The position numbers and the translations under genes are program-made. Below, one piece after another: positions 3,042 to 37,053 of a DNA stretch of 64,000 bases; positions within the stretch are counted from its first letter, which is position 1, and each line of letters starts with the position of its first letter. This DNA comes from Acidobacteria bacterium SCN 69-37. GTDB lineage: Bacteria > Acidobacteriota > Vicinamibacteria > Vicinamibacterales > SCN-69-37. The stretch spans positions 158,359 to 222,358 of the forward strand of contig MEDJ01000019.1 in assembly GCA_001724025.1 (NCBI GenBank), read 5' to 3'. The notes beneath the pieces are model-generated. The model was not told where the DNA came from, did not search any database, and worked only from the letters and a program-made list of their open reading frames with translations.

Positions 3042-5474
3042 TCAGGCGAGGTTGAAGCGAGGCCTCGGTCCGCCGGTCCGCGGCGAATCGGTCTTGCGCG
3101 TCGATGGCTGCAGGGCGAGGACGAGCACCTCGTCCATCTCGGCCACATAGTGGATGGTGAGATCCTGCCGCTGAGCCGGCGTCAGATCCTCGAGGATGTT
3201 GCGCTCGTTCTGGCGAGGCAGGATGAGCTCCTTCATCCCCATGCGCCTGGCCGCGAGCACCTTCTCCTTGATCCCGCCGACGGGCAGCACGCGTCCGGAC
3301 AGCGTGATCTCGCCCGTCATCGCCAGATCCCGTCGCACGGGCCGTCCCGACAGGGCCGACGCCAACGCCGTCACCATCGTCACCCCGGCCGAGGGGCCGT
3401 CCTTCGGAATGGCCCCGGCCGGCACGTGGAGATGGATCTCGGCATCCTTGTAGAACGTCGCATCCACGCCGTACCGCGCCGCGTTCGCACGGAACCACGA
3501 GAGCGCGATGCGCGCCGACTCCTTCATCACATCGCCCAGTTGCCCGGTCAGCGTCAAGTGACTGGCGCCGGGCATCCGTGACGCCTCGACGACGAGCACG
3601 TCGCCCCCCACGGGCGTCCAGGCCAGCCCGATCGCCACGCCCGGATCGCGCGTCCGGTCCCGCATCTCCTCGTCGAGGTGGCGCGGGGCCCCGAGCAGGT
3701 CGGTGACGACGTCCGGCGTGACCGTGACGGGGGTGGTGTCCCCCTCGGCGTGGCGGCGGGCGATCTTCCGGACCACGGATCCGATCTCCCGCTCGAGGTT
3801 GCGGACGCCGGCCTCGCGCGTGTACCCGTGGATCAGGGCGACAAGCGCCTCGTCGGTGAAGGTGACGGCCTCACGGGCCAGGCCGTGACTGCGGATCTGG
3901 CGATCGACCAGATGATCGCGCGCAATCTGCAGCTTCTCTTCCCCCGTGTAGCCCGACAGTTCCAGCACTTCCATGCGATCGCGCAGGGGCGGCGGCACCG
4001 TGTCCATGACGTTGGCCGTGGTGATGAACAGCACCTCGGACAGGTCGAACGGCACGTCGAGGTAGTGATCGCGGAACGCGTTGTTCTGTTCCGGATCGAG
4101 GACCTCGAGCAGCGCCGATGCCGGATCGCCACGGAAGTCCGAGCCGAGCTTGTCGATCTCGTCGAGGACGAACACGGGATTCTTCGACTCGGCACGACGC
4201 AGTCCCTGGATGATCTGACCCGGCAGCGCCCCGACGTACGTGCGGCGATGCCCGCGGATCTCGCCCTCGTCGCGCATGCCGCCCAGGGCGACGCGAACGA
4301 CCTTGCGGCCGAGCGCGGTCGCGATCGAGCGGGCCAGTGACGTCTTGCCCACGCCCGGAGGACCGACGAAGCACAGGATCGGGCCCTTCACGTCGGGCTG
4401 CAGCTTGCGCACGGCGAGGTATTCCAGGATGCGGTCCTTGAGGCGATCGAGCCCCGAGTGATCGGCGTCGAGGACGTCCTTCGTCTTCTTCAGATCGATG
4501 ACCTCCTCGGTCCGCTGATTCCACGGCAGCGTCACGAGCCAGTCGATGTAGGTCCGCGCCACCGTGTACTCGGCGGCGGCCGCAGGAATCTTCGACAGGC
4601 GATCGAGCTCGCGCATCGCTTCCTTGCGCACCTCGTCCGGCATGCCGGCGGCCTCGATCCGATCGCGCAGTTCTTCGAGTTCACGCGCCTGGTCGTCGCC
4701 CTCGCCGAGTTCCTTCTGGATGGCCTTCATCTGCTCGCGCAGGAAGTACTCGCGCTGGCCCTTGCCCACTTCGGACTGGACCTGCGACTGGATCTTCGAG
4801 CCGAGTTCGAGCACCTCCAGTTCCTTGGTCAGGATGCGGTTCAGCTTGTCCATCCGATCCCGGACCCCGGCCGTCGACAGCAGATCCTGCCGCGTGGCCG
4901 TCCCGATCGTGCTGAGGCTCGACGCGATGAAGTCCGTGAGCCGCGGCACGTCCGTGATGTTGCTGGCCAGCGCGGTGAGATCCTCGGACAGCACCGGCGA
5001 GAGCTGCACGACCTGCGTGAAGTTCGCGCGGATGTTGCGTTCGAGCGCATCGATCTCGAGCGCATCCGTATCCACGGCGCTGTCGGTCAATTCGCTGACC
5101 TCGGCGCGCAGGTACGGCCGCGTCGACACGACACGATCGAGGTGCAGCCGCGTCAGGCCCTGCACGATCAGGCGGAGGCTGCCGTCGGGCAGCTTGAACA
5201 TCTTGTGGATATGGGTCAGCGTGCCGACCTCGTGCAGGTCGGCTTCGCCGGGATCCTCCTGGCCGGGTTCCTTCTGCGTGAACACGCCGATCACCTTCGC
5301 GTTCGCGATCGCATCGTCGATCAGGGCGACGGACGACTCGCGGGCGACGGCCAGCGGCATGAACGAATTCGGGAACAGCACGGTGTCGCGCAGCGGCAGG
5401 GCCGCGACCTCGCGTGGGACTGTGAAAGTCCGCTCGGGCGTACCGGGATCGTGATCGAACGTGGAGTCACTCAT
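3042..5474 (-). CDS. lon: ATP-dependent Lon protease
   Basis: This is an 810-residue cytoplasmic AAA+ serine protease that degrades misfolded and regulatory proteins. In order it has a LonN substrate-binding domain ([19 protein letters not shown] at about 24-42), a coiled linker, and an AAA+ module with Walker [10 protein letters not shown] and Walker [12 protein letters not shown]. The C-terminal protease domain has the serine in KDGPSAG and the lysine in [10 protein letters not shown]. The frame is open 79 codons further upstream. The ATG at 5474 is chosen because it is preceded by an AAGGGG-like ribosome site and gives the usual family length. It lies 140 bases downstream of dksA, separated by a terminator-like hairpin. 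Confidence 0.96.
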
Positions 5475-5556
5475 CTCAGTTCCCCTTGTCGTCGTGGAGA
5501 GGCGTCCCCCGGACCCGCAGTCCGGCGGGACACCCGAAATCAGGTACAAACGAGAA

Positions 5557-5590
5557 ACGCGCAGATTCCGCCACCGCGGAACCTGCGCGT
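5557..5590 (-). terminator. Intrinsic terminator downstream of dksA
   Basis: The arms CGCGCAG/CTGCGCG and TTCCGC/GCGGAA pair around a CACC loop with one A-C mismatch, giving about 14 paired positions. On the minus strand the hairpin is followed by TTCTCGTTTGT, a T-rich run. It lies between the dksA stop and the lon start, so it either ends the dksA transcript or attenuates read-through into lon. Confidence 0.65.
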
Positions 5591-5614
5591 CGAGACCTCG
5601 GCGAAGGTGCCGGG

Positions 5615-6064
5615 CTAGCTCAGGTCGATCAGAAAGCCGGCCGGACGTCGCTGGGCGAGATGCCGCTCGCGCAGCTCGGCCATCTCGCGCTCTTCCTCGC
5701 AGTCCTTGCACCTGACGGCGAACGGGAGCGCCCGCAGACGGCGCTCGGAGATTTCATCGCCGCACTCGTTGCAGTAGCCATACGTCTTCTCGTCGAGCCG
5801 GGTCAACGCTTCCTCGATCTTGTGGAGCGTCTCGGACTTCATCTGGATCAGGGCGAGTTCGATGTCGTCCTGGATGTCCGCCTCGGTCGTCTCGGCCGCG
5901 TCGAGCACGCCCTGGCCTTCGCCGGAAGCCCCGAAGGCCCGGACGTCGCGCATCTTCTCCTGCACCTCGCTGAGAATCTCACGACGCCGTTCCTCGAGGA
6001 TCCGCTTCAGCTCCGCATATCGTGCAGTTGGCATGTCGTCCGTGCTGGTAGTCCGTCGAGTCAT
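5615..6064 (-). CDS. dksA: DksA/TraR-family zinc-finger transcription factor
   Basis: This 149-residue protein has a long predicted coiled-coil (about 20-95, rich in E, R, K, D) followed by a four-cysteine zinc finger, CNEC then CKDC about 20 residues later. That is the architecture of DksA-type proteins, which enter the RNA polymerase secondary channel and work with (p)ppGpp. The ATG at 6064 has a strong GGAGG ribosome site 6-7 bases upstream. An in-frame ATG ten codons later (MPTARY) is a weaker alternative. The acidic coiled-coil tip (TTEADIQDD) is consistent with a functional factor. A rel/spoT gene lies 1 kb away on the same strand. Confidence 0.88.
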   Translation of the reverse strand: MTRRTTSTDDMPTARYAELKRILEERRREILSEVQEKMRDVRAFGASGEGQGVLDAAETTEADIQDDIELALIQMKSETLHKIEEALTRLDEKTYGYCNECGDEISERRLRALPFAVRCKDCEEEREMAELRERHLAQRRPAGFLIDLS

Positions 6065-33700: not shown

Positions 33701-35517
<1,817 letters not shown>

Positions 35518-35540
35518 CCGCGACCACCCATTCCCCCCAC

Positions 35541-35848
35541 AGCGACGACTCGTCGAACCCACAGTGTCACCACGCGCAGGTCACACCCAGCATGTGCGGC
35601 GGTCGCATCGACGGACCGCAGAACCCGCAGCGACGACCCTTGGAGGTGACCGGCAGCACCTGCGGCGGTCGGTGTGACGAGTCGGGGCAACAGGGACGAG
35701 CAGGTAGCGAACCAGCGGCGACGAGTCGGGGAAGGACGTGCCACCACGCGCGGAGGGCACGATCACCACCCGAGGAAGTCACGATCAGCAGTCGGAGCGG
35801 TCACGATCACCACCCGGGGAAGGCACGATCAGCAGTCAGGGAAGTAAC
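35541..35848 (-). repeat. 22-bp periodic repeat array, left block (about 14 units)
   Basis: Cutting the sequence every 22 bases from 35541 aligns 14 degenerate units. The last four (35761, 35783, 35805, 35827) start GATCA and three of them end CAC; nearly all units have A at position 5. Earlier units match the consensus at 11-17 of 22 positions, against about 8 expected. One more weak unit (35519-35540) reaches the thiC promoter. Read on the minus strand the clean units begin GATCGTG and the alternate ones end GGTGGT, resembling the right block in the opposite orientation. The period is not a multiple of three, so it is unlikely to be coding. Confidence 0.75.
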
Positions 35849-35922
35849 AAAAGCAGCTAAAGCATGGGGTAACTGATTGATACGACGAGAGTTGCCGGAC
35901 TGCGGAATATTTCTCGTTTTGT
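35849..35922. other. AT-richer centre between the two 22-bp repeat blocks
   Basis: This 74-base segment contains CAAAAGCAGCTAAAG just at its left edge, AACTGATTGATACGACGAG and GGAATATTTCTCGTTTTG. It is visibly less GC-rich than the flanks. No 22-bp unit aligns well here and no gene is seen. It separates units of opposite orientation. Confidence 0.5.
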
Positions 35923-36230
35923 GACCTGCGCGACCGGTCACAGTGGTCTGCGAAAACGCGATCACCGATCGCGCCGATCGCTTTGCCTGATCGACGCGAT
36001 CCGTTCGGGTGATCGGCGTGCGTCGATCGGGCGATCCGCGCGCGGGGTGTAGGTGATCGGCGCCGTCCGTTTCGGTGATCGCGGCGACCGGTTCCAGTAA
36101 TCGCGAGGCCCCGTTCGGGTGGTCGCTCCGCGCCGTTGACCTGGTCGGCACGACCTGTGTCCCCAATCGCGCCGATCCGTTCCAGGTGTCGGCGCGACTG
36201 GTATGTGTGATGGCGGCGACCGGTCGCACC
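35923..36230 (+). repeat. 22-bp periodic repeat array, right block (about 14 units)
   Basis: Fourteen consecutive 22-base units can be laid out from 35923 without a gap. Most begin with GATCG, AATCG or GGTCG, have CG at positions 7-8, and many end in GGT or AGT. The best units are at 35989, 36055, 36077, 36099 and 36165. TC at positions 3-4 is kept in twelve of the fourteen units. The repeat is highly degenerate between units but strictly spaced, near two turns of B-DNA. Open frames on the minus strand here are a by-product of the stop-free unit. Confidence 0.78.
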
Positions 36231-36261
36231 ATCTGCCAAGGCGTCCACTGTGCGCACGTGA

Positions 36262-36759
36262 CTGGGCCTCCAGACGACGGGTGGACCGTGCCGTGCGGGG
36301 CATCACGGACGAGGTCGGCGCCGTGGTGGAGCGGCACGACGACCGGCTCTTCGGCGAGGACGTGGCGCCGCTGACGGACGACCCGAACCGCTTTGCGGGC
36401 AAGCAACTCGACCCGGAAACGGCCCTGGTGGACGAGCGCGCGGTCAGCGAGCGAGTCGACGGAGCGGCGCGGGGCGTTGGGGCCCCGCGAGCGACGTCGA
36501 GGGGAGTCCGCAGGGGCGCAGCCCCTCGGATCGATCTTCGACGCGCGCTACTACCGTCAGACATGGGGACGGTTCACGCAGGTGGACCCCGTGCACGTCG
36601 ACGCGGCGATGACCGATCCACAGCAGTGGAACCGGTATGCGTATGCGCGGAATAACCCGCTTAAGGACAGATCCGACGGGGCTGAATGTCGTGGCCCCGG
36701 ACGGCCGGGGAGTTCGATTCAATCCGGACGGCAGCTTCCGGGGCTTCTTGGAACCTTAG
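36262..36759 (+). pseudogene. Rhs/YD-repeat protein, C-terminal core remnant (frameshifted)
   Basis: Three frames together spell the Rhs-associated core. ITDEVGAVVERHDDRLFGED and NRFAGKQLDPETAL come first (to about 36427). An insert follows, then DARYYRQTWGRFTQVDP and QQWNRYAYARNNPL in another frame (36540-36660). DPTGLNVVAPDG and FNPDGSFRGFLEP in a third frame end at TAG 36757-36759. The conserved GARYY core and NRYAYxxNNPL are the signature just before the variable toxin tip. There is no upstream YD-repeat region and only about 26 residues after the core, so this is a decayed fragment, not an active toxin. Confidence 0.8.
36428..36533. repeat. Palindromic insert inside the Rhs remnant
   Basis: About 106 bases interrupt the Rhs core and shift its frame. 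The insert carries the stem GCGGGGC/GCCCCGC (36469-36488) and the nested stems GAGGGG/CCCCTC and AGGGGC-GCA-GCCCCT (36499-36527). GCGAGCGA occurs twice with a GTCGAC/GTCGA motif after it. It looks like a small REP/MITE-type palindromic element. No other copy was noticed in this window. Confidence 0.5.
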
Positions 36760-36768
36760 GGGTCGTAC

Positions 36769-37053
36769 ATGGATACATTGGGCGATTTCCGAATTCAAGC
36801 CATGTCTGACGCAGACTACGACGATTTGATCGTCGAGGTCCTCCACAAGGGTGAGTTCTGCCTGCTGATTAGCCAAGAGGCCGGCTTTGAGGACCGGCGT
36901 GTGGCGATTCAACCGAGGCGGGACGGCCAACCTTGGGATTTCGCCATGAAGGACTTTCAAGCTGTTCTAGAGGCGGCTGCCAGTCGCCTGTGGGAGCTTC
37001 GCAAGCAGCCCGGCGGGTCTGATGCCGCGGGCGGCAGCACGGTTCCGAATTGA
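36769..37053 (+). CDS. Small immunity-like protein downstream of the Rhs remnant
   Basis: This is a 94-residue acidic protein: FRIQAMSDADYDDLIVEVLH, then EFCLLISQEAGFEDRRVAI and WDFAMKDFQAVLEAAASRL. The 'YDDLIVEV...LISQE...' pattern is one I associate with small proteins encoded after Rhs toxins, but I cannot name the family. The ATG lies 9 bases after the Rhs stop, and the ribosome site AGGGG overlaps that stop, so it was probably coupled to the toxin gene. Base composition is less GC-rich than the neighbours, consistent with transfer. The cognate toxin tip seems lost, which makes this an orphan. Confidence 0.65.
   Translation: MDTLGDFRIQAMSDADYDDLIVEVLHKGEFCLLISQEAGFEDRRVAIQPRRDGQPWDFAMKDFQAVLEAAASRLWELRKQPGGSDAAGGSTVPN

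Follow-up and report, generated by a model that had tools for sequence, protein, structure and literature searches.

The window, the whole stretch of 64,000 nucleotides that was analyzed, lies on contig 19 of a genome of 4.43 Mb in 25 contigs. Between thiC and an Rhs remnant, it contains an array made up of two arms of 22-bp units (Table 1), the units of the left arm reading outward on the minus strand (TGATCGTGACYTCC...) and those of the right arm outward on the plus strand (TGATCGGCGCGACCCGTTCGGG). The most uniform part of the array, at positions 35727-35837, was the only one detected by Tandem Repeats Finder. The four units of the left arm that adjoin the core are most alike, two of these being 91% alike. 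The neighboring Rhs remnant is apparently interrupted by a GC-rich stretch (about 36440-36535).

Table 1. Coordinates of the array and its neighbors in the window, and of near-perfect 22-bp repeats in other genomes of the order
Feature	Position	Strand	Remarks
TPP riboswitch of thiC	35389..35508	-	48 bits versus an Rfam gathering score of 54.3; neighbor, outside the element
-10-like TATAGT of thiC	35517-35512	-	Touches the left array edge; read from the sequence
Left arm	35520..35841	-	About 15 units of 22 bp; outward consensus TGATCGTGACYTCCGCGCGTGG
Core	35842..35947		AT-richer than the arms by sequence; AAGTAACAAAAGCA ... TTTCTCGTTTTGTGACCYGCGCG
Right arm	35948..36233	+	12-13 units of 22 bp; outward consensus TGATCGGCGCGACCCGTTCGGG
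Non-repetitive outer end	36234..36292		Common to the C17, C16 and C9:439k copies; CACGTGAC..GGCCTCCAGACGACGGGTGG
Rhs core-domain remnant	36393..36809	+	TIGR03696, 36.3 bits; neighbor, outside the element
Near-perfect 22-bp repeats	L165 9644-9957 (G117); L166 1-253 (G118); L167 9928-10129 (G014)		

Lag-22 self-identity amounted to 0.524 in the left arm (35519-35870), versus 0.284 (sd 0.025) after shuffling, and to 0.552 in the right arm (35950-36232), versus 0.282 (sd 0.027); none of the 2000 shuffled controls reached an identity of 0.38. Lags 44, 66, and 88 scored almost as high as lag 22, the right flank (36232-36700) gave no lag-22 signal (identity 0.262), and the array had the top lag-22 z-score of the entire 64-kb window, with nothing else close. 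The initial annotation had described a strictly 22-bp-periodic array, free of spacing slips, in two opposed blocks around an AT-richer center, located between the thiC riboswitch promoter and an Rhs remnant. Indeed, all of this was confirmed, the absence of slips applying within both arms. Its estimate of about 14 units per side became about 15 units to the left of the core and 12-13 to the right, and its extent (35519-36230) fits the repeat arms, which stop near 36233, and not the block common to other copies, which extends to about 36292. The units are generally not palindromic, as their dyad score did not exceed that of column-permuted units in 10 of 11 arms, and an 11-bp sub-period within the units was not found. 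An array of RNA hairpins was rejected as well, given these generally non-palindromic units and the fact that the right arm folded better than its shuffles (z -3.0) whereas the left arm did not (z +0.3). Long open frames within the array result from the inward strands containing few stops.

The search for further arrays proposed in the initial annotation revealed at least 13 period-22 arrays, together with two fragments, in the same genome. These arrays fall into several families with differing unit sequences and display a polarity from the core, as described below. In intact copies, a core of about 60-120 bp is flanked by two arms whose 22-bp units point away from it. DNA searches within the genome retrieved a colinear copy of the window element (C17:44.7-45.4k), two copies with internal deletions (C16:7.1-7.4k and C19:408k), and one copy nearly reduced to its ends (C9:439k); the core of the window array is recognizable in four copies. 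A second subfamily (C24:186k and C9:120k) has its core and inner arms in common with the window element. The left arm, core, and inner right arm of these two arrays are about 95% alike, and their outer right arms consist of different unit strings, as if exchanged. Further arrays, retrieved by period scan or pattern, occur at C8:82k, C9:219.7k, C1:51.7k, and C1:339.4k, of which the C8 and C9:219k arrays look one-armed. A second family, with quite different units, is represented by the array at C24:85.7k (left outward units TGGCACC....., right outward units CCGGTCGCnGTGGATC..), of which C21:90.9k is a full second copy with both ends sharp; two further partial matches occur in the genome. The copies are thus dispersed and have common ends, both of which are sharp in the second family; certain copies keep the ends alone. 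Unit profiles are weakly alike between arrays, mostly on the same outward strand. At C1:339.7-340.0k (L017 1700-2020), the contig is broken by an IS5-like insertion sequence located where an array borders on its core; this sequence is present at four places of the genome with 100% identity.

The period itself recurs when the search is blind to sequence. Indeed, a period scan of 0.8 Mb yielded four period-22 arrays at z>6, two of which had been missed entirely by the DNA search, and single matches only for periods 20 and 28. At z>5, and over 1.13 Mb, or about a quarter of the genome, six period-22 arrays were found, the other recurring non-triplet periods being 14, 28, and 38; a 7-bp simple repeat accounts, at least in part, for periods 14 and 28.

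Homologous arms, compared over 1907 aligned bases in total, differed by 172 substitutions and six gaps, all of which were whole units; no gap of any other kind was present. The gaps measured 22, 22, 22, and 66 bases, plus 21 and 65 bases; the last two correspond to one and three whole units, respectively, in an arm where units of 21 bp occur. Eight arm pairs in anchored global alignments contributed 1403 aligned bases with 145 substitutions and gaps of 66, 22, and 22 only, and the second family, added separately, contributed 504 arm bases with 27 substitutions and gaps of 22, 21, and 65. The core and outer end, by comparison, had 42 substitutions and four 1-bp gaps in 323 aligned bases. Before addition of the second family, the gaps differed between arm and non-arm sequence with p=0.003 (Fisher), in a comparison of few events, in which the control stretch was short and some pairs shared a copy and were not fully independent.

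Within the units, substitutions were as frequent at conserved as at variable columns, both in the right arm (17.7% versus 15.1%, p=0.40) and in the left arm (10.0% versus 11.6%, p=0.48). Since column-wise purifying selection was thus not found in the present copies, sequence-specific binding today is unsupported. Transitions dominate the substitutions between copies, and no codon-position bias was found, so that a protein-coding repeat was rejected. In short, the letters drift freely and the spacing holds. The initial annotation had read the array as phasing for protein binding or as a decaying minisatellite, in either case not coding. This interpretation was partly supported: the non-coding nature was borne out, and the equal rates across columns agree with decay, but the spacing is kept, and simple decay does not account for arm gaps of whole units only. 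In the L176 / L231 family, the left arms differ at 8.4% of sites and the right arms at only 1.7%, which suggests a recent conversion of one arm.

Similarity of a unit to other units falls with its distance from the core. Over nine largely independent arms, with the first ten units of each taken into account, the mean Spearman rho was -0.54, eight of the nine arms being negative and none of 300 permutations being as low. Similarly, neighboring units had an identity of 0.64 in the first three steps and of 0.46 farther out (p=1.4e-6), and five of the six unit gains or losses occurred within about four units of the core. Unequal exchange is expected to homogenize the interior of an array and to leave its edges diverged; here, instead, the most similar units were those at the core-side edge. 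The arms change length by whole units, mostly beside the core, and their outer units are more drifted. Most simply, units would enter and leave the arms next to the core and grow older with distance from it.

A DNA search with the element gave no match in the sister species, the sole other species of the genus, and a period scan of 647 kb of that species revealed no array, its weak period-22 match reading as a coding stretch. Similarly, no array was found in 367 kb of a genome of another genus of the same family. Four matched sites lacked an array in the sister species. At the thiC locus, the two flanking matches lie 117 bp apart, the array, the Rhs remnant, and the trpS gene all being absent, and the same TATAGTC precedes thiC. 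At the C16 site, the intergenic region measures about 120 bp versus about 770 bp, and has no array; no array occurs at the queE and PBP-gene flanks either. With one sister species compared, this absence shows a lineage-specific gain or loss. The initial annotation had counted absence from close relatives against the array; although the array is indeed absent from this sister species, its phasing recurs in other copies of the same genome, so that the absence does not undo it. The thiC gene carries a TPP riboswitch here, and the thiC leader of the sister species is short, with no TPP match found (L213 1380-1500). Beyond the family, tandem repeats of 22 bp that are nearly perfect and built from other unit sequences are present in three genomes belonging to a different family of the order (Table 1). 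The core motif was matched in six other genomes of the order and in one Rhizobacter contig, in all cases only at three mismatches and without a 22-bp period, and these matches were discarded. Plasmid, phage, and viral-contig records contained no matching element. Viral contig IMGVR_UViG_3300045772_000026 matched a unit pattern and was rejected, as it carries a strong 11-bp tandem array (L211 345-715; GATCACTGAGC).

The explanation proposed here, which we favor tentatively and hold to be somewhat short of probable, is that the elements form a lineage-specific, non-coding family dispersed among intergenic regions, each intact copy having a core flanked by two outward-facing arms. The 22-bp spacing would correspond to two helical turns, with one weakly specific DNA-binding protein per unit, all on the same face of the helix. 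Active elements would have required such same-face phasing, and the copies present today would mostly be relics in which the spacing alone is still visible. Since the spacing is exact across unlike units, the 22 bp appear to be set by something physical, for which a two-turn protein footprint is the simplest candidate. Exact two-turn phasing suggests same-face binding by the candidate protein, as on plasmid iterons, the nearest working analogy. The plasmid origins of R6K and pPS10 contain 22-bp iterons, and a half-turn shift between iterons leads to loss of cooperativity (PMC4980987). Several results weigh against this explanation: column constraint is lacking, which also speaks against a function of the present copies; a Rep3 initiator was not found in the genome; terminal inverted repeats and target-site duplications were not seen; and some arrays (C8 and C9:219k) look one-armed.

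The main rival is a plain minisatellite that happened to spread, i.e. an ordinary degenerate array shaped by slippage or unequal exchange, dispersed by segmental duplication, never functional, and owing its 22 bp to one ancestral unit. This is possible, albeit doubtful. It fits the neutral-looking substitutions without column constraint, the dominance of transitions, the unit-sized gaps, the weak resemblance of units among several arrays when read on the same outward strand, and the near-exact 22-bp minisatellites in other genomes of the order, but it accommodates less well that no non-unit gap accompanied the 172 substitutions in the arms, that families differing in their units nevertheless have the two-armed design in common, that copies have sharp ends and internal deletions, and that homogeneity lies at the core-side edge and not in mid-arm. 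Alternatively, the arrays may represent a class of elements that build their own phased arrays. In this case, the core would direct how whole 22-bp units are added or removed at both of its borders, so that the arms would grow outward with time whatever the unit sequence, and copies would disperse between genes; we consider this unlikely.

The elements could also be what is left of iteron-type replication origins, or of partition sites, from a plasmid or phage satellite that integrates, the units serving as initiator sites and the core as melting region; this is improbable. The known 22-bp iterons of R6K and pPS10, for which helical spacing matters (PMC4980987), and the tandem sites at constant helical spacing beside an AT-richer core flanked by oppositely facing arrays speak for it. 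Membership of this class is nevertheless not supported, as the genome has no match to Rep3_N (Rep3 being the initiator family searched); moreover, no plasmid or phage record matches, no replication genes adjoin the copies examined, and about 27 units exceed the three to seven listed for known origins (PMC4980987). Finally, the arrays could be upstream regulatory sites, phased beside core promoters and controlling thiC, toxin-antitoxin, and other genes; this is improbable as well. In its favor, the array of the window stops at the -10-like box of thiC, and parD, a PIN-toxin operon, queE, and a PBP gene each have an array immediately upstream (promoter positions being read from the sequence). 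Against it, the neighboring genes have no common pathway, some copies are situated behind greB or flanked by unrelated genes, column constraint is lacking, and the sister thiC has the same -10 without any array.

Dispersed repeats of bacteria are normally palindromes or transposon relics. The window element and its kin fit no named repeat type, and literature on 22-bp arrays yielded only plasmid iterons and unrelated VNTRs. With the iteron arrays of R6K and pPS10, they share 22-bp direct repeats, helical phasing, and a location beside an AT-richer region (PMC4980987), but they differ by two opposed arms, about 27 diverged units, many chromosomal copies, a unit sequence that varies between families, and the lack of a Rep3 initiator. 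Whole-unit gain and loss of degenerate tandem units recalls minisatellites or VNTRs, from which the recurrence of one period in families of different sequence, the opposed arms, and the polarity from the core set them apart. As in MITEs and other non-autonomous bacterial elements, short, non-coding copies with common ends are dispersed between genes, including internal-deletion forms that keep the ends. In contrast to these, the body consists of phased tandem units. Neither terminal inverted repeats nor target-site duplications were seen by eye in the aligned ends, the copies being old. By analogy only, CRISPR arrays also have similar units beside a core or leader and diverged units distally, but no repeat-spacer division exists here, decay being even over the unit columns. 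Within one genome, several families with different units thus combine one exact period, opposed arms, and unit turnover beside the core. These elements point to a process that counts 22 bp, via a protein footprint or a unit-sized copying step, and provide a testable case of spacing that is kept while sequence drifts. Lastly, like REP, BIME, and REPIN sequences, they are dispersed intergenic repeats, some copies adjoining REP-like palindromes, although their units are generally non-palindromic and arranged in arrays of exact period. A block of about 200 bp that contains REP-like GGGGCTTCAGCCCC palindromes occurs with high identity at L033 ~5400-5700 and L034 ~5150-5400 and is joined to the same array end, indicating that the copied unit can exceed the array.
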